Below are positions 17,546-51,400 of a stretch of DNA of 64,000 nucleotides, piece after piece (position 1 is the first letter of the stretch; each line of letters begins with the position of its first letter). The notes under the pieces are model-generated. The model was not told the origin of the DNA. It searched no databases and saw only the letters and a program-made list of their open reading frames with translations. Source of the stretch: Watersipora subatra. Its lineage: Eukaryota > Bryozoa > Gymnolaemata > Cheilostomatida > Watersiporidae. The position numbers and the translations under genes were made by a program. Location of the stretch: the NCBI RefSeq assembly GCF_963576615.1, contig NC_088715.1, positions 60,299,802 through 60,363,801 of the forward strand, written 5' to 3'.

Positions 17546-19567
17546 TTAAAGTTCTGTAATTGCTTCCTCATGCTTTGAGTCATGTTCATCATCTTTGCTC
17601 GATGCCCTCCTTGCACAACTCCCAATACTTGCTTCTTGGTTAAGAATTATGGCAGCCTGGTGTTCTTTTCCATTCGGTTGGCTTATTGAATTCTGTTCTC
17701 TTTGCAAAATGGGTTCTATTTTTTGGTTTTGTTCATGTTTTATAGTCCTTACGTCTTTAGTGTTTGGTTCATTTTCAGCATTCTCATAACTTTGTGACGC
17801 CTGTTCACTTTTGACAGGAGAAACACTTTTTGTAGTCTCCATTTTGTTTATGTTCTGGTCATCTTTTAAGCAATAGACAATTGAGCTTTGCTTGCTTTCT
17901 GCGCTTTCCTCACTTCCTGTGCGCTTTTCACTCTGGGCGCTCTGTTTACTTCCTGTGCTCTGCTTACTTTCTGTGTTCTGTTCACTTCCTGTGCTCTGCT
18001 TACTTCCTGTGTTCTGTTCACTTCCTGTGCTCTGTTTACTTCCTGTGCTCTGTTCACTTCCTGTGCTCTGTTCACTTCCTGCTGTCTGTTCACTTCCTGT
18101 GCTCTGTTCACTTCCTGTGCTCTGCTTACTTCCTGTGTTCTGTTCACCTCCTGTACTCTGCTTACTTCTTGTGTTCTGTTCACTTCCTGTGCTCTGTTTA
18201 CTTCTTGTGCTCTGTTCACTTCCTGTGCTCTGTTCACTTACTGTGGTCTGTTCACTTCCTGTGCTCTGTTCACTTCCTGTGCTCTGCTTACTTCCTGTGT
18301 TCTGTTCACTTCCTGTGCTCTGCTTACTTCCTGTGTTCTGTTCACTTCCTGTGCTCTGTTTACTTCCTGTGCTCTGTTCACTTCCTGTGCCCTGTTCACT
18401 TCCTGTGGTCTGTTCACTTTCTGTGCTCTGTTCACTTCCTGTGCTTTGTTTACTTGCTGTTTTCTGTTCACTTGATGTTTGCTGTTCGCTTCCTGTCATT
18501 AGCTCACTTTTTGTGCTCTGATCCATTTTTGTTTTTTGCTCAGCGTTGTGCTCATATACTATTCTAAACAAGCTTTTTGCGCTTTTGTCATTTCCAGTGC
18601 TTTGTATATTGTTTAAATTTTGTTCACACCTTGTGAATTGCTCACAATTCATACTTTGTCCTCTACCTACTCTTTCTTCAGCTTCTAGTATCTGATAACT
18701 TTTAGTAATTTGATTCTTCTCTGCACCCCCTTCAGTTGTTGTACTCTGGTTACCTTTCACATTCACTTCCAATCCTGTGTCTGGAGAACTTCTTGTTTTT
18801 TGCTCTTCTTTTGGCTTCTGCTCCTTTACTGCACTCGGTTCCCCCTGCCATTTTTTGTTCTCCTCATTATCTGGTAGATCCTCATTTGTTGTGCTTGACT
18901 TGCTGTCTGTGTTTTTCTTCTTTTTTAACATCAGTTTATTTTGAGATTTGTCATCACTTTTTGTATATTTTTCATCACAAAGTTCACATTTCAGTGGTAA
19001 ATCTTGTTCATAATTGATGCATATAGTAGGTTTCAGACCTTGTTGAGTTTCTGTATCTGCAATGAACTGAAAAGTTGTATCAGCTTTTTGATCTACATCG
19101 TCGGTTTTACACTCTTCCAAACAGTTGTTTTGGGCATTCAAATATTTTTCATCACAAGTGTTTGAATGATCTTCCTCTTTTCCTTGACATCTTTCACCTT
19201 GGCTATGCATGATGTCGGTTTTAGAATTTATCTTCCGATCAATTTCTAATTCATTTGAATCTATAGAGCTCACTGTAAGGTTTTCACTTTTTGAACAATC
19301 TTCATTGGTTGTGGATGGAGTCTGACGACTCTTAGTGCTCCATTCACTTTCTAAACTGATTGATGTTTTTCCATCTTCACTCTCAGAGGTCTGTGCAGAA
19401 TCCAAGTACTCTCCTCCCTCGCTACCAGTTGAACTTTCGGTTTCAGTTTCACCAGTACTACTCTGCTGACTTTTAGAACTTTTCTCGTTCTTGGTGATTA
19501 CCTTCCTACCAGATTCTTGTTCATACTTTTTTTGTTTGTTTGCTTCAAGATCCTTCTTAGGTTTTTT
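17546..19567 (-). other. Gene A terminal exon encoding the 673-residue cytoplasmic tail
   Basis: The acceptor TTTTTAG precedes AAAAAACCTAAGAAGG, so the tail starts KKPKKDLEANKQ, in line with RATKKAELES in gene B and RKAKLQEE in gene C. The exon stays open for 2022 bp to a TAA. Composition is dominated by S, T, E, Q, K, N and G, with no hydrophobic segment, so it should be disordered and cytoplasmic. Residues about 805-1020 are the hexapeptide array. The non-repeat flanks are also rich in SEQ, TKSE and EQK runs, as if they were decayed older repeats. Confidence 0.88.
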
Positions 19568-22500
19568 CTAAAAACAATAATTGATGTGAAGTAGTCAGTT
19601 TAACTTATTTAGACTCTGAATTTACTTTGCTTTTACTCAAGCCGTCACTACCATTCAGCTTTTTTTATAATCAAAACTAAAACAAAAGGTTTATTTAAGG
19701 TTTTTTATTATTAAAGATGAGCTTGTCAGGCGGTTTTTGGTATTATTCTACGATTTGCTTTTTTGATTTTTGAGTTGATGTGACGGCCAGCATGTTTCAA
19801 GATTAATTTGACAAAACTTGATCTCAGTTAAAACACTCAGATCCAGCGAAAGTGTGATTATGATGCCTATAGTTGTAAAGAGACTGACAGAATAGAAGTG
19901 AGTAATGCTGCAACATGAATGCAATAGCCAATCTCAACTATAACACCGAGATCATCTAGTTACATCATTTCACACGGGTTTCGCTTCTGAGCACTTTAAC
20001 CTTGATCAAGTTTTGTTGATTTTTATCTGTAGACATCCTGGCAATCAAGTCACCACAAGCAAAAAAACAACTGCAAATAATAGAATACTGATACGTTCTG
20101 ATAAAATCTTGTAGAAATTTGTGTAAGTTCATCTTTAACATTGGTCATGTCAACTTATAGCTAAAATAGGATATAAGGAGTTGTTTACTCTCAGTGTAAT
20201 ATGCTTCCATCCAAATGAATTATTGAAGCAGCAAAACATTTAGAATTAAATAAATATGTTTAACAACCTTAATAAATCTGTTCCAGATGAAGTATACAGG
20301 CAGGGCTATGTAGAATGCCCAAGATGCTATGAGAACAGAGGCTATTGGCAGTATTATTGACAAATCGCTGTCAGGCTGTCTGGCTATCGACTTCACAACC
20401 AACAAGGAGATCATTACGTTCTGTGCACCGGTTTCAATTGAGATCGTCTGTAATACATAAGACATACACTAGACATAAAGTACTAAGTTATTATGATACA
20501 ATTGACTAACAAACTGAATGACAGTTACGAATATCATTTTTCTTTATTACCATTTTTCATTTTAAAATTATAGCTACCGCTTTTCTTCCCGTCTATAAGC
20601 TCTCATAATTAACGAATTGGAAATAACTTATGCATATTTGATTTGTCAAAATGAGTGGTCCTCTTTGGACAGACTTCAAGTTTTGCGTAATTCTTTCTTT
20701 TCTAAAGACAGCTTCATTCGAGATACATTGATGACGACTCACAGATCTGTCATTAAAAAAGGTGAATTTTGAATCAATGGTAAGTTCTAAGAATGATATA
20801 AATCAGCATGGATATCAAAGCCTTTAATTTTCTTGTTAAAAATAGCAGTCGTTTTAATTGTGCCAGCTTTCACTGATTCCCAAGATGTTGTACATGGAAT
20901 TACCAATATGAATAAAATTTTTACCTACATGGAACTTAGACCAATGGCATTAAACTTATTAGACTGAGCTCTAACCAAGTAGAGCAAAGAAAAGGAAAGA
21001 AAGAGATCGTTAAGTGTGAGTGTTGAACCAGTTTAATCCTCCCAACTCTTTAACCAACAGGTCTAATCGGCTGCTTCCCGAAGCTTTAGAATATTTTTGC
21101 AAATTTTTATTTTCTATTATTTCTGATAGAAAAGGCAAAAAGAAGAATGAACAATAGAAATACATAGCTTATTTTAGCAGCAATTTTATAAAAAAAATTT
21201 CATTTGGAATAAACAAAAAATATATTATATCCGATTTAGTAAATTCATCATAAAAATATATGTGCTGTATTTTGAGTGCATTCAATAAACCTTCAATCTT
21301 CAATAAAAATAAAAAAAGTTATATTAATCAAGAAGAGGAGATCTGTGAGTCAGAAAAGCAGAACAGTGAAATATCTAATTTGATTTGGCCACCTACCTTT
21401 ATGAGTTTCCAATCAAACCGTAAAATCCATGCCAACAGGGCGCCTAAGATATATCCTCCATATGGCAAGATGCATGCAGCCACCACAACTCTAGCATTCC
21501 AGCCATAGAATGTGTAAATGTTGACATAGAGACCAAATGTGTAGAAATATACAATGATCAACACGAACAGGACCTGCAACAAAATATGCATACTGATAGA
21601 AGGGAATAGTAGCCTTTGTTAGTGTCTCCCTGTAATCATTTCACTCTAGCCTAATAATGGGAATTTGGTTAAACAGAAGCATGTTGGTCTACATAAAAGG
21701 GATTTTTAATATAAAAAAAACTAAAACGTCAGCTTAAAATTTCACATGAAATACTATAAACTTCGGCTCAATATTTCATATGAGACTTTTTGAACGATAA
21801 ATCATTTTTTAATTTAGTTTAGGATCTGAACTACTGTTAAAAATGAATTTGCGCAAAATTCATCATGTTTCTATCATTTGTGATTGTTTTTGATGTTTGA
21901 GCAGGTCTGACAGCCAAAATGTTTCAAAGTTCTGGCTGTCATTAAATTATGCCATTAAATTGCCAAATATAAACTTATTTTTCCTGCGTAAGAACCCTTT
22001 GTTCAATTTTAATAGAAAATTAAAATCAATAAAATTGGAATGTGGTTGAAACACTCAAATTAAAAATAAGTACAAAATGATGTCACGAGTTGCTATCATT
22101 GCTACGGTTGATATGAGCTATTGTCTTCAAGTTACAGCATTATGCGTCTCTACGCCTCTCTGCAATTATAGTCTGATAACCACACTTTTGCTTGATCTGG
22201 GCGTTGTCACTGCGAACAAATTTCATCAACTTTAATCTTAAAATATCTTGGCAGTAAAATTATTCTAAACATTAAAAACGGTCGCAAATGATAGAAAAAC
22301 ATCGATGCTTTCTGATAAAATCTAATAAAATGTTGTGCAAGTTTACTTTGAGTAGTTGGATCAAGCTGAAAGGAAGAACAACTCTTCTCATTATTGCCTT
22401 GAGCTGAAAGCAGTCTTAAAATACGCAAAGAACCAGTCTATTTTATAACTTACAGCTTTTATACTTACCTTCAGCCATTTTCTTAGAAGGTTGGCAACTT

Positions 22501-25500
22501 TTGGAAACTTAAATCTTATTAAGGCGCCAACAGTAAGTGGTAATATGATAGTGATCAGAGACCTCAAAATTCCTAGAAACGGGATTTTAATTCTCCCCAT
22601 TCCATCGTCTGCTGGGATGGTTAGTCCAAGAGTGTACAGCCAGGCTGGCAGCGCTCCTAAGAAAGGAAAATTTTTTTTAATTATGGTCGTTTTACCTGTT
22701 TTTGGATGAATTACTAAACAGTTTTAGCATTGCTCCTATCTTGAAAAACTGATTTACAACAAAAATATATTTTTAATAGGCTGCAACACCAAATTTTGCA
22801 ATCATTCAACTCTGACTACAAAATGGCAGAGATTTTACATTTAGATGTAATATCTACGTTTAGATGTAATATATAATACCGAAACTATCTAATATCAGAG
22901 TGTGTGTTCAGATGTAATACCGAGACTATCTAATATCAGAGTGTGTGCTCAGATGTAATACCAAAACTATCTAATATCAGAGTGTGTGTTCAGATGTAAT
23001 ACCAAAACTATCTAATATCAGAGTGTGTGTTCAGATGTAATACCAAGACTATCTAATAATAGAGTGTGTATTCAAATATAAGACCGAGACTATCTAATAA
23101 TAGAGTGTGTGTTCAGATGTAATACGAGGCTATCTAATAATAGAGTGTGTGTTCAGATGTAATACCGAGACTATCTATTAACAATGTGTATGTTCAGATG
23201 TAATACCGAGACTATCTATTAACAATGTGTATGTTCAGGTGTAATACCGAGACTATCTAGTAACAGAGTGTATGTTCCGATGTAATACCGAGACTATATA
23301 ATAATAGAGTGTGTATTCAGATGTAATACCGAGACTATCTAATATCAGAGTGTGTGTTCAGATGTAATACCGAGACTATATAATAATAGAGTGTGTATTC
23401 AGATGTAATACCCAGACTATTTAGTAACAGAGTGTATGTTCCGATGTAATACCGAGACTATATAATAATAGAGTGTGTGTTCAGATGTAATACCGAGACT
23501 ATCTATTAACAATGTGTATGTTCAGATGTAATACCGAGACTATTTAGTAACAGAGTGTATGTTTAGATGTAATACCGAGACTATCTAATAATAGAGTGTA
23601 TGTTCAGATGTATTACCGAGACTCGCAAAGGTATTCAGTGTCGTCATTGTTGCACTGAGGGATAGATCTGCATTGAACAGTTTTGAATACATATTGCTGT
23701 GTCCACCTCCTGGAGAGCAGCCGAGAACAAAGAATCCAAGTGCTTTGGCACCAGTAAATCCCATCACCCATATGATTCCATATGAGACCTGGCAAACATA
23801 AGCCATTAAATTGCTAAATATATAACTTAGTTTTGATACGTAAACAACCTCTGGCACTCAGCATCATGCTAATCAAATACTAAGTTTTTTTTACTGTAAA
23901 AAAATATTTTGTTTCACTTTTGAGACTGATGACGAGCTACATAAATGAGCTAAATATATCAAATTATCTTATTGAAATGTGTTTAAAAAAACTTTCTGTA
24001 TCAGCATGAGCTCGCACAAAAAAACTGTGAACAAATAGCTATCAACAACTGTAGCTTCATCAACTAAGTTTTATGCTAAAAGTAAACGTAATATGTTTAC
24101 TTTTAGCTTGCTTACTTTTTACTTTTAGATGTAATACTAATAACAAACATTACTATATTATAGTAATGTTTGTTATTAATAGTACATCTACAAAAGCAAC
24201 TGGGTATTATTTAAAAATGTTGCTAAACAGTGAAAATGTGAGTCAACCGATTTCTAAATGCTTACAGATTCTACAGGTTATGGTTGGTAGTAGACTGTCT
24301 TTTAATATTAATGGTTGAACTAAAGTGAACGTCTCGAAATTTTAACATCATAATAGGTACAATGATGAAGACCATTCTTAATGCTTTAAAGGAGGGAACA
24401 CACTGAGCAAACTTTACAAACTTACCAGAGGCATTATGGTAAACTGTGAAACAAAAGCAACAAAAGGGGCTTTGGGCTTCTTCAAGTGTGATTTGATGGT
24501 TTCAAAGTCTAGATCATTTCCAGTTGCTATTTTTATCAGCACGATCTGTACAAAAGCAACGATCGAAGATTAAACAAGCAGTTAAATGTGTATATACGTG
24601 TATATAGTAGGTAGGTTGTAGGTAAATTGAAAATAGTAGTAACTATTAGTAGCTATTAGCAGCTCGTAGCTACTGTGGTGAGGGCCAGCGGGCCTTGTGT
24701 CCGGGCCAATGCTCGGCTTGTTCTGGCTAGACTTGATTCAGTATGGCCAGACTGCTAGTGAGGGGACAAGGGGACCCAGCTTGGAGTGAGGGGACAAGGG
24801 GACCCAGCTTGAAGTGAGGCGGAGCCTAATCATGACATTTATATGTAAGGTAACATATGCAAAAGACCATATCAGTAGAGCTTATATGCATATACGCATG
24901 CATATGTATATGTATAGGTTTTTGACTACAACTTTCTCACATCAGCTACAACGTTGTTTCACGCTTGGCACTCGTCAGGTTGTGAACAAGAATTTGCAGC
25001 CTGACAAGCGCCAAACGTGAAACAACTTTGTAGCTGCCACAGAAAATTTAAGTCAAAAATCATCGAGTTTCGATACACCTAACTCCCAGAATTCAGAGAT
25101 CCCTTTTTAACTTAATTTCTTCGAGATAGCAGATGAGTCTCTGGCTTTTTTTACACTACTAGTCACAGACTAGTGTCAACTGATATCAACTACCAGACCA
25201 ATCAAAAATAAAATTGAATTTGTAGATAAATTATGGTTATAAATTAGGTTATAAAATTTACTCATGAAATTGGATAAAAAAGATAGTTAAAGCTACAAAG
25301 TAATTTGACTTATGCACTGTAAAAAAGTACAGCCCAAAAATAAAGTTTTTTTATTAGAGGCTTTTATAATAAATACGAAAGCCTTTTTTAGCCATCCAGT
25401 ACAAAATGGCCTGTGGTTGAACAACTACATTAAAACCGTGAACCATAAAAAAAACAAAAAGTGGTCCCTTGATGACTTCCGCACAGTACAGAAGTGAGCA

Positions 25501-28500
25501 CTCATATGGTGACAGAGTTGCATGAGAATGATCTCACTAAGCTACTCTTTGATGAATAACTCGCTCTTGTCATCTCAAAGCTTCTCTCCTGAGAAATTTG
25601 TAACTCCAATGAGTATGACTACGCCTGGGAGGTAAAGGTACTACATGCCCTATAAGTACATGTATTTCAAGCTAATTGCATTTGCACTTAGTGAAATGAG
25701 CTATGATCAGAGGTAGATAGATCTTCTTTGTAATTTTAGAAATAAATTGTGTTCCGTCAGACAAAAATGGGGACAACAAACTCTCCCTTTGTGAAACAAT
25801 CAATTTTCAGGTTGAAGACTCTTTGATTGAGCCATCAACCTAGATATTCCTCTTAGTTTGGTCATGATTTGATGAGTTGGAGTCTTTAATTGTAATGGTT
25901 TCACCTTTAGTTGGTTGAACCAACCTCACGATGAACTTGCGCAAAATGTTAGTAGAGTTTATTAACAATTATTAATGTTTTTCTATCATTTGCGATCGTC
26001 TGTGATGCTCAGGGTGATCTGACTGCTAGAATGCTTTAAGATTAAATTAAAAAACTTGATCACAATTAAAACCCTCGGATCAAGCGAAAGTGTGATTGTT
26101 ATGTCTTCAGTTCTACAGAAACCAACAGAGTAGAGACTCGCAACGCTGTAACTTGAACATGCAACCATAGCAATGGTGTCATTTATAGCAATGATATCAA
26201 CTATAGCAACGATACCAACTACAGCAATGATAGCAATGAGTAACATCATTTCACACATATTCTTCTTCTGATCGCGTTTTGTCAATTTTAATTTTAAAAC
26301 ATCCTACCAATCAGATCAACAATAGTAAACGCTTGTACGGCTCCTCAATGAGCTACTTGACTCACCAATATCATAAGAGAAATGTCGTATGCTGTGTCCA
26401 CAGGGCGGTGTGATCTTATCGTTCGAAGTCTGATGTTACCAACATCAAAGACTTCGGTGCTGTTGTCCAGGGAAGCCGAGAAATTCAAAGTTGAGTAACC
26501 CAGATAGACTGAGGTACCTATTAAACAGTTCAGGCTTCATTTAGTAGAACACATGCTATGGTTCATCTAATACTCTTTTGGTTTGATCCTGGTCATTTTA
26601 TTAAAGCAGTTCCTACAGAAACTTTAGGGCTTCTGTGCATTTGTGTTGACAATTGTCTACATAGCATAAGATTCTGAGACTACAAATAACCTACATTAGA
26701 CTGTCTTACCTATGCAAGATTTATTGCAAGTAAAAGCAAGTAACCATTGAAATACTTTCCGAAATTTTTGTCTAGATTCCTGGGCATATTGTTCATGTCA
26801 TGAATCGTGAGAAGTATTTTTAAAACAAGTTCTAACTTTTGGAAACTCTTGCAGAATGGCATTTACTATGAAAAACTTCTTTTCAGTGCAGGTATAAATA
26901 CATCTTCAGAAAAGGTCCATCAGATTTGGCTGCATTTACATTTGTACTTTATTCTCACTAGCATGTTGTACATTCTAGTAGTATTATACTGCAAAAGGCA
27001 GTGTAATGGAATGCTAATGTACATGTATTACATCATCATTTCAGCATTGGCGCCAGCATATTTGAAGTGCTGCTGTTTTACTTACAATAGAATGACAGGT
27101 TGTAACAGGTTCCTAATTCTTGAATGCTTTCATTTCCACTCGCCGATAGCATGTGACCTTCATATTCTGTGACATTATGGTAGGTCTTTCCTTGACATGA
27201 AGTGACAGTAACTTGCTCCTGCAAAATGTGATGTTTATTATTAATTATATTTTCAGGTTCTGCAGCCACAAAAACAAGCTATTTCAGCAGAATAAGTACC
27301 TTGCCCATCTCCTAAAAGTCAAAGAGAGATTCAATTCAAGGGTTTGTAAGCCTCACTCAAGCGACACCATTGAGTCAATAGCTAGGAAAGTCTCATAAGA
27401 GACAACCATTTAGTTTGGCAAAAATGTTTTTGCCAACAAAACACTAAATAAATTATAGGCTCCGTTGACTAATGCATAGAAAAAGAAGCCTACCTCTGAC
27501 TGATACCCAACCAGTTACTTGCTGAAATATCGACGTAGCATCTATGAGATGAACAAAATGGTCCTGCAAGCAAAAATTTGCTATGCTCACCGATACTGTT
27601 GCGACACTCCGCTGTGAACTCTCAACAGAAACATTAAAGCTGTTTAGTTCTTTATTTATAAATAGCAGCACAGATCTCTGAGTAGGAGGTTGCTGATAGT
27701 ATATGGTGAGAATCTCTTCTTCTGGATGGATAACAGTCACCTGTGTTGAGCTTTCACTTCCTAAAAGTATATAGTATAAATTTTCAGAATTTAATCTGTT
27801 ATAACTACTGAGAATATTGTCTCAACTAAATTTTTTAAACAACAACTTTTAACTAAAAAAAATAAATTTAATTTCAAGTTTGAATGAACTTTTCAAAATA
27901 CATATTTTTATTAATTTAAACTTTATAGAGAAAATGTAAAAGCGTATGCACTGATATTTTTTATAATATTTTTTCACATCTATTTTTGTGAAAATGTTTT
28001 AGGACTTTCATTAAAATTTTGTTCATTCTTTTTTGTAAATTGGTCATAACATATGGCATTATTCCACAAAGGCAATTGAACAGTGCCAATATTGAAAGCT
28101 GATAGTTATATTGGAGTTGTCTGATCATCTTTAGAATAGGCAGTATCATTAGACCTTAAGCTGTTGCAATGGATTTTAAATTAGCAATGTATCTTATAGA
28201 ACTCTATAATTAACTTTTGGTTTTACTACACAACACATGTATCAGCTTAAAATCCGTTTATTAAATTTGTCTGGCCCTTAAAAACATAAAGCTTGTAACA
28301 TGACATTTAAAAAGAGTGAGTAAAAAATGATGATTGGGTGATATTGAAACTTTTTGTTTAATTTAATCATTGTCGGGTTTTGTGATAATTATGATTATGG
28401 CTGCTATTGCTTATTTTTAAAATACTCCTGACTCATCTGACAGCTATAAAACTTCACTTAACAATGTACCAAATGTGAGACCATTTTTCATGGTTAGTGG

Positions 28501-39420: not shown

Positions 39421-42400
39421 ATGCATAGCTTTTACTCTCTTTTTTTCACCTTCTGTTTAGCTGCAGGATACGTCTCAAGTTGGAACCCAGCTAACAGTAA
39501 GTAACAGTTTGTACTTTACAGGTAATTTATGACAGGCATGAAAGGCTTCAGGTTATTGGAAACTAATGACAGTGCTCCAGTGCTCCTCCCATAGATAAGG
39601 TATTACATGTAGAGAATAGTCAACATGTATTAGTATACTATATTAATATCTATATCTATGGGACTCATAAGTGCCAAGTAGTTATTCTAGTTGTGCACTG
39701 ACTATCAGCATTATTTTATTTTAATTTTCTACTAATAAGCACTAAATTGTTTAATTCACTTTTTTAACTTTGTTATCTAATTGAAGACAACTTTTTTGTC
39801 TAGTTCCTTTGTTTTTGTTTGGCAAGCATTATTTTATAACATCGCAAATTTTTTGTACAAATATATTCAATGAGAATAGTTAAGTACTATGTTTTTATTT
39901 GTTGAACAAGAATTCATAAGAAATGACTTTTAACGAATGCAACATAAAAATTTTAAATCATAGACATTGTCTCCTCATTATGGTTGAAGATGCTAGTTAA
40001 CCAGCCTAAATGGATGTACGAAAAATAGTCCAATAAGTTGGTCGCTAGTTTTTGGGTTGGGAATTATATGGAAGTATCCTCTCTTTGCTGTTCTTCCTCT
40101 GATGTGTAATGATCTGATCATTTGCAGGCAGCTCTACGGATTCAGGATTTAGGATTGTTCCTCCTGAGGAAGGCCTACTTACAATATACTATGACTATCC
40201 TCCAACGCTTTGCCAAGTGCTTCTTTATGTCGATGGGCCTGTTAAAAACTTTTCCATATCCATAGAGAGTGTCACGACCAGCGTTGCTACAGTCTCGGTG
40301 AGTCTAAATTCCTAATCACCACTTCATACAACCGAACTTTTGTTCGAGGCTAATAGCATTTCCAGTATCACATAATCTACAATATCATTGATTATCGACA
40401 AAGAAATGGCCTGATCATTTTTGTCAAAAAGGTCGATAGTTGGGTGGGTAGACAATCTGCACCAGTAACTTGTGAGGTGGTTTAGATGTTTTGCTTTTTA
40501 AATGATAGACCAAAAAAGTATGAAGACCCAAAAATTGGGAGCCACATCTAATAGCAGATAATCTTTTTGAAGTTTAGCAAATTGATAGACTTCATATAAA
40601 TGAGCTACCAAAATACATGGTTCAAACTTGTCCTGATTGATTATTAAAGAACGACTAATCAATCAATTACAATGGTAATCAGTATAGATTACTCAGTAGA
40701 TCATAACATGTGCTCTCGAGCTGGTATATCTATGCAACTTAGGCAAATTTTTGTGTAATCCGCATTTTTTGTTAAATCTTATTAAAAATCGCAGATATTT
40801 ACTATAATAAAAGTTGTGTTCATACATTCACCCATAGTCATGATTATATGTTTAAAAAAAAGTTGCATCACATGGGATTTGAACTCTGATACTTGACTTA
40901 AAAGTCAGTTACACTACTACCAACAGTTTGAAATAACTGTACAGATATTTATTACACCTGATGTTCTCTCACCGCGAATTAAGACTGCCAAAGTGCCAGT
41001 ATTTACGTATAGATAAAAATCTTATATAGCTGTTGGTTCTATTAGCTAAATGAGGTTTTGAGAGGTTATAATTAAAGTTCTCTAGTTACTACTTCCTGTT
41101 GCATAAATCGCATTGAGAAAGTACTCTCCTGATTTTTTGTTCTTCTGTTGATGTTTAAAACGGCATATATAAAACTATCAGTATTTTTAAATCAATGGGT
41201 TTTATGTACTACAACAATGAATTACAACAGTAGGATGCAAAAGACACAAAAAAATAACCCGCCATCGGTGCTCAGACTGTGTAGATGTAATTGAGGCGCC
41301 ATTATGGATATTGGTGCAGTCTTGCCAGGCACTGAAGAATTTGTGTCATAAAATTGATGCAGTTTTGACAACATAAATGTACAAACCTAAGAGCACTGAC
41401 AGCTATGTACTAGTTCTAGCAGCTCTGTACAACGATGTCTGGGAAATACCAATCATAAAAGCATCCAGTTGCCAGCAAAAGGTCAAAAGGTCAAAGTTCT
41501 TTGTTTACAAGAAGTTAAGCTTTTATGATTCTAGGACTTCCTGTCTGTTTGTTTATTGCTGACATTCATATTTAATTTCTTCCCAATAGTAAATTCAAAG
41601 GAAGCTTTTCAGAGGAAGGCTAATGTTAAGGAATGTATAGTGAAGACAACTCCGTTCATTAAGTCATTTCAAAGCTGTAGTGTGCATATTGTTAGTTACT
41701 GGTTGAATATTCTCAGATAAATTGGGATTTTGTCAAAATTACTTTCTTGTAAAAGGCACTAAGTTGTTTTTTAAATTCAGGTCAAAGTTTTTGCTCAGTT
41801 CTGCTGTAGACACCAAATCTTTGTGCCTAGAATCAATATTGAGCCATGAAGCAGAATCAAAGTTTAGCTAAATGGTGCAAAGTGATGCTAATTCATCACA
41901 ATTTTGGATAAATTTATACAACTAACACAGGACCAGCCGTAGATTGACCATAAACCTCCAACCAGCATAGACTTATGACTAGGTACCAACTGGCCATAGA
42001 CCTCCAACCAGCATGGACTTATGACTAACTACCAACTGGCCATTGACCTCCAACCAGCATAGACTTATGACTAGGTACCAACTGGCCATAGTCCTCCAAC
42101 CAGCATGGACTTATGACTAACTACCAACTGGCCATTGACCTCCAACCAGCATGGACTTATGACTAACTACTAACTGGCCATAGACCTCCAACCAGCATAG
42201 ACTTATGACTAACTACTAACTGACCATAGACTTCCAACCAGCATAGACTTATGACTAACTACTAACTGGCCAAAGACCTCCAACCAGCATGGACTTATGT
42301 CTAACTACTAACTGGCAATAGACCTCGAACCAGTATAGACTTATGATTAACTACTAACTGGCCATAGACCTCCAACCAGCATAGACTTATGACTAACTAC

Positions 42401-45400
42401 TAACTGGCAATAGACCTCCGACCTGTATAGACTTATGACTAACTACTAACTGGCCATAGACCTCCAACCAGCATAGACTTATGACTAACTACTAACTGGC
42501 TATAGACCTACCACCAGCATAGACCTATGATTAGCTCCCGACTGGCCATAGACCTCCAACTAACATAGACTGATGACTAGCTACTAACTGGCTATAGACA
42601 TTACGGTTGCAACCACCATTGCCTTAAACACTTCAAAAAAATTGTGCGTTTTGAAATTTAATACACAAATAATGGTGATATTGAAGGATATTGAAAGACA
42701 ATTATTGTAGAATAGTATGCTTCTTGCTGAAATCTTAAGTTTAAATATAATTATTTCTTATAATGCCAACTTTCAGGCATTGCCAAGTTTGTATAACCTA
42801 CTGTAACAAGATTGGCTAGGTATTTGTTCCAAGTCATCCGTTTCTCTCAGTTTGGATTATAAAGTACAGCTTTAACATATATTGACAAGTGTTGTGGCTG
42901 ATTGCCAGGAATTTGTCAGCATTGGTATTTCACTAATTATAAAAAAAATGTCATGCAGGGTGTGTAACCTTTCAACACAATTTATTGATATACAATTATC
43001 AATCAAATCGCCAGATTTAGCAGATGTGGTATTTGTTGTTATTTGGTTCTTTCGAAAGTCATGCCAAAACCTTTAGTGACCACATAAATATTTCTGGTTT
43101 ATTTTTCATAGTGCTGGTGGCATATAAACTGTTTTTCTAACGAGTTCAAGTGTCCTTAATAGTACGAAAGCATTTATCTATGAGGGCTGTCATTGCTATA
43201 AACAAACTTTTCTACAGCCAAAAGAAATATGATTTTCCTAATTATTTCCCCACTGAATTGTAATGCTGTATATACTGTGTGGGGAATATACGTAAACATG
43301 ACATACTGACAGATATAAAGCATTTCATGCCTAAATCTCCTACTAGTTTTGTTTTAGTAAAAAGCCTCACGAAAATTATGCAATCACTGAAATAAATATT
43401 ATTTAAACTTGCTATTTTGAGTTTATTTCAAAATGTTTGCTTCACTTCTGCTTCTTCAAGAGTTTATTGTTTTTCTGATCATGTTTTTAAGAGATTTTCA
43501 AAATAATGTCTGAAAGGTTGCTCGACAGCTGTTGAACACTTTTATGGCCTTAAACTAGTCTGTTTTGTTTTTGTCTCAACATGTTTTTGGAATTGTTTTC
43601 ACCTGACTTAAAGCTCTTTAGTATTACTTGAGCATGCAAGTCTTGTTGTCCATTAAGAGAAAGCTTGTTTATTAGCTAAGATAGAAGTTTTAGGCTATTT
43701 TGTAGCTGATCTCAAGCTATAAGTTACATTTAGGCTATAAGTTTTAGACTTTTCTCAGGCTTTTCTCAGGCTTTTCTCAGGCTATAAGTTAACTTCCCAA
43801 CTGCATTCTGGTCGAAAAGCAGAAAGTTTTTATTTCGGGTTTGTTTTCCTCAGCACTCAGATAAATTCTGTTTGTTTATAACATTTGTTACGCTACTTGG
43901 GAATTTTAATGTTTTTTGTTAACAGTATGTTAAGAATTAATTAGCTTTTAAAACTATCTAAATACTGTAAAAATTTTGAAACGGTTTAATTGATAAATTA
44001 TCCATTGCGTCAAACCACAGCATATTTCTTTGTTGAAATCATAGTAAACAAAGTGTTTCAACATTCTTAGAGAAGAAATTGCTTTTAGGGTATAGAAAAA
44101 AGCAAAATTTTCAAAAGAATGCAGATTTGCCAAGACACCAGGTTAAACAATTTTATACTGTACTGTACGATATTATACTATATGATGTTATATAAGTATT
44201 GCTAACATATAAGCCTACTATATGTTGATAACACAAGTAATGTTTTGGTCTATATGCTAGCTGTTTTAATAATTGCGTCAGCACACTGCATAGTAAATTT
44301 TCAAAAAGTTGTTTAATGATGACATTTTTCTTAGCAACATCATTTTTTCTTTGAATTGTATTTAATATGACAAAAATCATTTGAAGGAGCATATTTCTAA
44401 TTATAAAACTTTTTCTACAAAAAGAGTAACTATATAAAATTTTTATTGATGTATAAATTTAGCTATTCAGCACCAAGAACACTTTTGGCCGTCATTGCTT
44501 GCCTCATTTACTACAGAACGCATGTTTTCATTTCTAAATTTAGTTATGACCTCTTGTGTTTAGATCACTTAAATTTGCCCAATTAGACACAATTGTTATT
44601 GCTATCTAAGCTCTCTTTATGCGAAGACAAAAATAGATCTTGGTGGAACTTAGGACAAAAGCGCCAACCAAATAAGTGATCACCAAATCCTTTAAAAAAT
44701 AGAAAAAAGGCGCTCTAAAGACTGCGAGACAAGAGTTAAAAAAAGCACTAGAATGTCACCAGCGGAAGAAAATGAAGAATAAGCTGAAACCACTCTGTAA
44801 CAATTTCAATAGCAAGAAATGTGGAGGGAAGAACAGGCCGCTAACAAAATGCTATCTAAAGCGTCTAGCGAAGATCCTAAACGGCTAATGGAGAAGTTCA
44901 CTATAATTATATTTCAATTCGGCCATGACTTCGAAGAGTAAAAATAATTTGGAATTTTATTTATATTTTAAAAGAAATGTTTGCTCATCGGTTAGCTTCA
45001 GCCTTCTGAAGATGGGTAAACCAGTGGTGAAAGATAAAATACCGTAATTACCGATTACTGTCCCTATTCTTTCAACATAAAAGTTAGGAGAGGAGTTGAG
45101 ATAGTAAACTAATATAAAGGTTTTGTGTGCTATCTTTACTGCTCCACCAGTACAGAACTCAGTGCATGAGTTTATACATATATTTGTTTGCTTCGTTCAT
45201 CAAGGGTTACAATAGAAAGCACGCAACATGTAATGAACAGGGGCAGAACACCTCTGCTCTCTCTCTCTCTCACAAATGTCCGAGCTTGTATAGCGGGTAG
45301 CTCCCAACCCCCACCCCCTCACGTTACACTCGATTGGACTCGGCTCTGACTGGCCTAACTCTCTTCATCTCGTTATTCCGCATGACTGAGCACATCCAGG

Positions 45401-48400: not shown

Positions 48401-51400
48401 AGTTACTTGTTAGTACAACTAATTATTTGTTAGTGCAACTAGTTACTTATTAGTGCTACTAGTTACTTATTAGTGCTACTAGTTACTTATTAGTGCAAAT
48501 AGTTAAAAATAAAAGTCATGGGTTTAAATCCCATTGAAAACAATATTTTTCCTAACCTCTAACAGCCATTTCAAATTGACGGAGGCACACAACTCCTCTT
48601 ATTAGAGTAAAGATTTGTCTAAAATACCTTCTTCACATTCATGCAGTTTGTTTTATCCTAACATTTTTGTGAATTTGCTGTATAATCTAATGCTTGCGTT
48701 TTTACAGACCATTATGACAGTCATGGCAATGGGCACAGACCTAGAGTTTCAAACTATTAGAGACCACTTACGAAGACCCAAGGCTCCTGGAATTGCCCTT
48801 CTCTCGCAGTTCCTCATAATGCCCATGGTGAAAATGATACTTACATGTGCAGTTTGCATAAAAATAGCTCTTATTTATCTAATTGTTAGATTTCATTGCT
48901 TTTTCATGCTTATTTATTTGAAAAAGTTTCAAAACAGCTATATTTTAACCATTTGAGCTGAGCAAATTAAATGAATTTTTAAATTATTGTTTTGTTGACA
49001 TCTTCTCCTTCAAATCTTACCGACATCTAAGTGCACCAAAGTTCTTGATTTTGTTGCAGTTAGCTTATTCCATAGTCTGGATATTTGGATATACTGGCGG
49101 AAAAGCTCTCGGTTTCTTTGCCATGGGCTGCTGTCCCGGTGGAGGAACGAGTAACATGTATTCAAAACTGTTTAATGGAGACTTATCTCTCAGCGTTACC
49201 ATGACAACCCTAAGCACAGCTGCCTCTTTCGGTATGTGATTGCGACAGCAAAAACATACAATAGCAGTACCTACGTATTTATTACATCATGCTAGCTAGC
49301 TATTCACCGTGTATCTAAAAACGATAATTATTTTCATGTAATTAGCTAGTATAAATCTAAAACGATGTGATTTAAACATGCGCTACAATTATTTTGGACA
49401 AACTGTCTTTTTAAATTTAAATACTCAGCTTTAAACCAGTAAGCATAAACAAAAATCAAGCAAATAGTGGGAAGTCTACAGTGCAAATTCTGTGGGTAGA
49501 TAACTCTCCATTATTTGAGGTTTAACAATAATGTTCCTGTTTCTAGCTTGCGAGTAATTTTGTTAAATCTTTTTTTCTGGTTTGGTTACTATAGATACTC
49601 CATCTGATTCCAAACTTTCAGTCAATTTTAGAATGTAAGTTCATGCCTTCTGCTTCTGTAAGTTCATGCATTCCACAGGAATGCTTCCGCTGTGGATATA
49701 CACTCTTGGTAGAACAATTCCAGCTGATGAGGGAGTTGATAAAGTAAAACTACCCTTCCTCAACATCCTCCAAAGTCTATCATTTATGGTCATCCCTTTA
49801 GCTATCGGTTCTCTAATCAAGTATAAGTTCCCTAGAGCTGCTGCCAAGATACGGAGAGGCCTTGATGTGAGTCTTTTTTATTTGATTTTTCTACATTCAG
49901 CAAAAAGTTATCTTATCTAAAACGAAGAGAAAGATAGGGAAATAACAACTTTTTATTTATAATACTAATTCAATTTTCATTTTTATTCCTTTGCTTCTGC
50001 TCCATTAGACTACCAGAAATCAGGCTGATGCAGGGTACCTTTGGATTTCATTAGCTTCTGGACTAGTTTTTATACTGATATTTGGCTCTGGGTCTGGGTC
50101 CGGGATTATTTGTCTAAATGTCTAGATATGGAAGCTCACTCCGATAAAGTTTTGTAATAAATGTAATTATAATAGTAATAATTTTAGTAATAAGTAGTTG
50201 CAATTATTAAAATAAAGGTTAGCTTGGAAATTTTATTACTAATTAGAAAATTTACTCACTTAGTTAAATTAATTGTTTTATTTATTTTGGGAAGCCATGA
50301 AAATTATGCGAATACTATTGTAGATCTGTTGTATTAACTTTTTTTCTAATATAATGTAACTCAATAATGAAAAAATAACTTTTCCAAAAACAAATGGATT
50401 AAATTTTAAGAACTGTTACAACAGTAAAATATATTTATTTACATAGTAAACAAAATTAAAAAATATTTTAGTTTTAAAATGCATAAATGAGACTGATGCA
50501 AAACTATTAGAAGGTTTACACTTCTTGCCAAGCAAAATTAAGTTGATATGTTTTCAGTGTGGTGCCATATTTAAAACTGGTTGTCAGTGAAGCATATATT
50601 TTTACTAAATATAAGCGAGCTCAAATAACTTCCTGTTACTAGAAAAAAAATCGCCAAAATTTATTTTAAAAATTATAAAAAAAAATTTATTTTTTGTCTG
50701 TTAAAATATTTCATATAAGCTTTTGTTATAGCTCACATCAGGAATTGCAGCTAAGGAGTCTATCAATCCTTTTTGTATTTTATTTGTACTAATTTATTCA
50801 TGCTCGTCTCATTGCTTCCTAATTAACTATATTGTATCATTCACAATACACACAACTCTTTCAATTCTTTCCATAAACAATTAAACTTAGAGTACATAAT
50901 TCTTTCAATATTTACTATAATAAGAGCCGTGTTCATTCATCTGTTTGTCTGTCCAAAGCCACAGTAGAAAGTTGAGAAAAAGATTGCTTCTAACAGGATT
51001 TGAACTCATGACCTTCAGGTTTGCAACCGGACACTCTAAACCCTGCACCAAAAAACGCCTAACCACATTGTGTAATAATCGCGAAAATAGTTATTCCCTG
51101 TGCTTATCGGCACACATTGCATTCTTTCATGCCACAATGAGCTGCCAGCCTAATAAGACACAAAATTTACTTCACTTTATTTTTTGTCTTTTTTTGTCTC
51201 ATGGTCTAATTTTTTTAAACGGCATTGACCGATGTAAATAAAGGTAAATCTATCAATCTAATAAAAATGTTTGAAATTCTCTTACATTAATCCTTTATGA
51301 TATTCCTAAACGCTTAGCTTTTGGTAAACAAACACTTGCTATCATTCTTTGCATTCTATAAGTCTCTATTATTGTTCTGTTGCTCTGTTGCAGATTCTGT

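Follow-up and report, generated by a model that had tools for sequence, protein, structure and literature searches.

The stretch analyzed here (the window) is a 64,000-nt region of the 784-Mb genome of the bryozoan Watersipora subatra, positions 60299802–60363801 of contig NC_088715.1 (C8), and it contains a transporter-like gene, designated gene A, in which the junction between exon 6 and intron 6 lies inside an array of 41-bp repeats. Exons were numbered as in an earlier annotation made from the letters of the window (the first-pass annotation), and exons 5–9 were read here. When joined, these exons matched the Pfam family SBF (PF01758; E-value 9.2e-30, 104.2 bits against a cutoff of 24.3), and they matched solved structures of sodium/bile acid cotransporters (7pqg, E-value 5.3e-35). 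We take the matched cotransporters to be NTCP/SLC10A1, one matched entry being titled "solute carrier family 10 member a1". Judged by these matches, gene A is an SLC10/NTCP-like transporter gene. Where exons 6 and 7 join, the protein sequence ...TFASLG/ALPAWL (a slash marks the junction here and below) aligned without gaps to ...TFLALGMMPLLL of NTCP. No Rfam family or tRNA was detected when the window was scanned for them.

Exon 6 of gene A ends with AGTCTCG/GTAATACATCTG (donor GTAATAC). Tandem Repeats Finder (TRF) detected a repeat at 22874–23623, with a period of 41, 18.3 copies, 89% matches, and a score of 1101. When units were cut from the exon end, 18 were obtained, each of 41 bp except for unit 13 (40 bp), followed by a degenerate 19th; the repeat unit is composed of 7 exon and 34 intron bases, with the splice site between them. 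Unit 1 (23583–23623) includes the last seven exon bases and the real donor, and every one of units 2–18 carries a decoy GT. A profile of the unit, searched against the whole window, recovered the 18 units (E-value ≤1.4e-11) and the partial 19th (E-value 0.079), and no further match below an E-value of 1. The first-pass annotation had described the real splice site as the first unit of a tandem array of about 18 units of about 41 bp, and TRF, unit cutting, and the unit profile all bore this out; the span it gave, 22860–23620, located the array but missed its measured bounds by a few bases (Table 1). The GT was kept in all 17 downstream units and G/GTA in 15 of them (all but units 13 and 14). 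CTCGGTATTAC was intact in 11 of the 17 (units 2–5, 7–12, and 18), in agreement with the earlier estimate that at least ten units keep CTCG/GTATTAC. The statement that the same junction is repeated was correct for the GT, but not for position +4, at which unit 1 alone has A instead of T; among the 41 positions, this is the only one where the base of unit 1 occurs in no other unit. This single base is suggestive of selection. Both +4 states occur among the donors of the paralogues, so the change at +4 may have gone either way.

Table 1. Features of gene A, its junction array, and related exon 6 loci (window positions unless prefixed with C8)
Feature	Position	Strand	Basis or remark
41-bp array, 18 units	22887..23623	-	TRF, cutting from exon end, unit profile
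Degenerate distal array end: partial unit 19, then 19-bp sub-repeat	22836..22886	-	TRF 22836-22872
Exon 5 of gene A	24426..24545	-	Profile and structure matches of joined exons
Exon 6 of gene A, 172 nt, phase 1 junction, terminating in ...AGTCTCG	23617..23788	-	Within joined exons 5-9
Real donor of intron 6, GTAATACA, weak, without G at +5	23609..23616	-	
In-frame TAG on reading past exon 6, upstream of first decoy donor	23585..23587	-	Translation; open frame ends 23588
Intron 6 of gene A, 960 nt, of which the array makes up 730	22657..23616	-	
Exon 7 of gene A	22469..22656	-	
Exon 8 of gene A	21397..21573	-	
Exon 9 of gene A, 3' end predicted	20268..20447	-	
Exon 6 of paralogue B, donor TCG/GTATGT, without array	49060..49231	+	Comparison
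L047, 70-bp x3 array from exon 6 donor	C8:60548881-60549460	-	Last exon base C8:60549289
L044, 59-bp x8 acceptor array upstream of exon 6	C8:59943103-59943282	-	

Gene A lies within a tandem cluster (C8:59.60–60.55 Mb) that holds at least 24 exon 6 copies of SLC10-like genes, 21 of the 24 on one strand, and represents a striking expansion of the family. We read 26 exon 6 copies, namely these 24, one at C8:51.56 Mb, and one on C7; nine more distant exon 6 matches on C7 lay outside this set. A GT stood at the exon 6 donor position in all 26 copies (17 + 9), and the donor of one paralogue (L032), GTAATAC, was identical to that of gene A. The 172-nt exon 6, with AG before it and GT after it, was likewise found in nine paralogues. 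Paralogue B, in the same window, shares the position and phase of intron 6 with gene A and has no array, indicating that the intron is older than the array. Gain of the intron by tandem duplication was ruled out by paralogue B and by the GT in all 26 copies. A U12-type intron was also ruled out by inspection, since the donor does not resemble RTATCCTT, the consensus of U12-type donors. At the end of exon 6, serine was found in 22 of the 26 copies, leucine in 22, and the split glycine in 25; because this exon end is conserved coding sequence, the array copied the exon and not the reverse. One copy in the family (L050, C8:59810719–59811292) has an in-frame stop and T, not G, before its donor, and is probably a decaying paralogue.

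When the frame of exon 6 was read past the real donor, it continued as SLGNTSEHTLYY and then reached a TAG. Because this stop lies before the first decoy, any message spliced at a decoy would carry an identical early stop, whatever the number of units, and would lose the protein from exon 7 onward. Nonsense-mediated decay is expected for such premature-stop messages. The proposal that decoys add multiples of 41 nt, usually shifting the frame into a stop, was therefore overtaken by a TAG that precedes the first decoy anyway, and the product does not depend on unit number, since the stop is the same in every case.

The strength of each donor was scored with a matrix of 50 paralogue donors inferred by homology, a set without the four donors of gene A, the exon 6 donor of the near-identical duplicate L031, and nine later exon 6 donors. 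The real donor scored 1.68 bits, and 7 of the 50 paralogue donors were lower; the gene A donors of exons 5, 7, and 8 scored 5.4–8.2. On this matrix, all of the scored decoys fell below the real donor, with 0.97 for units 15–17 (TTG/GTATTA), −1.71 for unit 6, and less than −4 for units 13 and 14. The A at +4 in unit 1 raises its donor score. The minus strand of the window has 3,449 GTs; 4.7% of these equaled or exceeded the score of the real donor, and 10.5% that of the commonest decoy. The suggestion that the array supplies many potential donors was thus right in form, given the 17 GT copies, but all of them are weak; scoring unit by unit, which had been proposed along with it, set the decoys below a real donor that is itself weak.

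Two further arrays were found at exon 6 junctions of the paralogues. In L047, a 70-bp array extends from the exon 6 donor. The real donor, TTG/GTGAGTAC (GTGAGT), is strong, with a score of 6.56, and the copies CTG/GTGAGTAT and CTG/GTGAGTAC (4.82) lie 67 and 137 nt downstream of it; as in gene A, an in-frame stop precedes the first donor copy. In L044, the array consists of acceptors. Its unit comprises 18 intron bases, which end in tgctatgtgtttag and vary in the first two bases only, and bases 1–41 of exon 6, which carry a few changes. In the frame of the exon 5–6 joint of gene A, its decoy acceptors would lead to a TAG by codon 21 at the latest. The sister gene L046 has a single acceptor copy and shares 162 of the 172 exon 6 bases (94%) with L044; of the 10 codons that differ between the sisters, 8 differ silently. 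The intron end of L046 matched the outer flank of the L044 array in 123 of 157 columns, compared with 90 of 165 columns for the inner sequence that abuts the real junction. This comparison indicates that a junction array was born from a single junction within the SLC10-like cluster. Elsewhere in the cluster, L027 (C8:60406595) and L031 (C8:60421128) are alike around the exon 6 donor, but intron 6 of L027 carries a degenerate array (+22 to +122) that is absent from L031; this difference is apparently a recent gain or loss of repeats near a donor.

The junctions of exons 5–9 were then scanned across the family. The scan covered 126 junctions that had sufficient flanking sequence and a GT or AG where predicted, excluding alignments more than eight residues short, together with nine further exon 6 acceptors, giving 135. 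In a recount, nine places had been excluded for want of a GT (eight exon 9 ends, the position of which is ill defined, and one exon 7 end), and counting by coordinate without the flank rule gave 127 junctions instead of 126. Three of the 135 junctions (gene A, L047, and L044) lay inside tandem arrays, each of at least three copies. The share of the 264 kb around gene A that lies in arrays with a period of at least 10 is 3.9% (≥2.9 copies) to 5.6% (all arrays), from which about 5–8 of 135 junctions would be expected at random, although the coverage comes from these 264 kb and part of the junctions lie outside them. Enrichment of arrays at splice junctions was therefore ruled out, and the simple growth of arrays in a genome rich in repeats, perhaps partly offset by selective removal, suffices. 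All three junction arrays touch exon 6, a pattern seen post hoc in few cases.

We consider it likely that a minisatellite grew neutrally over an old junction, that it is near-neutral, with at most a small splicing load, and that the first junction is still used. A tandem duplication in the old intron would have produced a 41-bp unit from the boundary, with 7 bases from the end of exon 6 and 34 from the start of intron 6, and slippage or unequal exchange would then have expanded the unit to about 18 copies. The first junction is probably still in use, being the lone copy with A at +4 and the lone copy beside a full exon. Rare use of a decoy would yield one identical truncated message that would presumably decay, and the array may be tolerated, and so be neutral, since the first junction wins. 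When a 20-mer of the unit was searched genome-wide, all 15 matches with 0–2 mismatches fell within the array, and there was no match outside it at ≤2 mismatches across the 784 Mb; allowing three mismatches added 2 matches inside the array and 28 outside it, compared with 41 in all for a reversed control pattern. As far as one 20-mer tells, the unit of the array is local in origin. The first-pass view that the minisatellite was built from the junction is thus upheld by the old intron in paralogue B, the conserved exon end, and a 20-mer without a close match elsewhere. Intron 5 of gene A contains a palindrome with 35-bp arms (24123–24193), the end of which shares the 13-base TATTACATCTAAA with the array; the palindrome had no second copy in the 264 kb (next best match, E-value 0.079). 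The same 13 bases also occur at the distal flank of the array, and a 40-bp array at C8:2.13 Mb matched at 70% in DNA. Both observations could be accounted for if the array stemmed from insertion of a mobile element or dispersed repeat at the junction, with a coincidental match to the exon end, but we regard this as extremely unlikely, since the 20-mer has no match outside the array at ≤2 mismatches, the remaining matches do not exceed the control, and the seven shared exon bases encode conserved residues. Such a source was rejected on the basis of the 20-mer and of the palindrome, which is single-copy in the 264 kb, and the 40-bp array, the unit of which is different and unrelated, was ruled out as a relative.

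It is also very unlikely that the real donor lies elsewhere, or that gene A is decaying with its splice site destroyed by the array. The donor is indeed weak for the family (only 7 of 50 are lower), but a GT stands at this exact place in all 26 copies, L032 has the same GTAATAC, and the frame of the joined exons 5–9 is open and aligns with NTCP. The other alternative is a splicing load or rheostat, in which the decoys are used measurably, each use produces a premature stop, and longer arrays cut the productive output. This fits a weak real donor beside 17 GT copies and an identical stop in every decoy message, and, for the human CBS repeat at the exon 13–intron 13 boundary, activity is reported to fall as repeats rise (PMC5188458). 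Several results count against a near-neutral array. The commonest decoy scored −0.02, with 4 of the 50 paralogue donors lower, and the predicted exon 9 donor of gene A scored −0.37, below that decoy; since the lowest-scoring inferred donors of the family do not surpass the decoys, use of the latter is possible. The real donor and the commonest decoy differ by one base, at +4, and the U1 pairing energies were close (−5.3 for the real donor, −5.4 for unit 6, and −4.4 for the commonest decoy). The GT is intact in all 17 decoys, with no sign of disabling. Predicted pairing, 0.73 at the real site and 0.39–0.71 at the decoys, does not favor the real site, and RNA structure that hides the decoys was unsupported, pairing being no greater at the decoys. 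However, the real donor outscores all scored decoys on the matrix, and these decoys have no G at +5 and are set in intron sequence; we judge a splicing load or rheostat to be unlikely. It is highly doubtful that capture of splice sites by minisatellites is a recurrent regulator in the cluster, with the number of decoys in at least three paralogues setting the share of productive message and the use of any decoy leading to a premature stop; if this were true, mutation of repeat number could shift the output of transporter genes.

The choice among near-identical competing splice sites is usually studied with engineered constructs. The loci described here form a natural side-by-side set, with 17 weak donor copies in gene A, 2 stronger ones in L047, 7 acceptor copies in L044, and a single-copy sister in L046. 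Such a set in one species would serve as a natural test of whether position, exon context, or site strength matters in splice-site choice.

Other repeats were observed in and near gene A. A 46-bp array of 14.2 copies (41948–42599) lies in the stretch that separates gene A from paralogue B, which has the opposite orientation. On the minus strand, a 673-codon open frame (17549–19567) resembles the last exon of gene A; it contains an 18-bp array of 32.6 copies (17910–18496), which gives a tail of six-residue repeats, e.g., TGSEQS. An inverted pair of 122 nt (22231–22352 and 25925–26046; 74% complementarity) in introns of gene A probably represents copies of one dispersed element.

In a search of open papers, no account of the gene A junction array was found. 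The repeat number of the VNTR (variable number tandem repeat) of miR-137 correlates with the use of alternative 5' splice sites, as could be the case for a decoy array, but in the passages cited its alternative sites are not described as copies made by the repeat (PMC6692358). Internal tandem repeats at exon–intron boundaries are reported in human duplicated genes, where they are said to yield alternative splicing and new introns (PMC2812944). The growth of minisatellites across boundaries in recently duplicated genes is common to both cases; however, the human repeats average 4 units of 30 bp (PMC2812944), whereas gene A has an old intron, with no gain of a new one inferred. In a potato gene, an acceptor–exon boundary is reported to have been tandemly duplicated and to have made a new intron (PMC4974935). 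The boundary duplication in L044 is similar, but there the repeated acceptors lie inside an existing intron. The closest precedent is the human CBS 31-bp VNTR, c.1444_1467+7(16_21) (PMC2630376; also PMC5188458, PMC1395315), and the gene A array is, from its structure in the assembly, a junction-spanning minisatellite of the CBS kind. By its name, the CBS unit also spans an exon–intron boundary, and the copy numbers are similar (16–21 in CBS and 18 in gene A); that the 5' splice site is copied in each CBS unit is a reading of the VNTR name only. The CBS unit has, again by name, 24 exon and 7 intron bases, compared with 7 and 34 in gene A. Furthermore, the length of the CBS repeat is reported to vary and more units to go with lower CBS activity (PMC5188458), whereas the gene A array is known from one assembly and its decoys are weak and lie behind a stop. 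The L044/L046 pair provides a polarized case of the birth of CBS-like boundary repeats.
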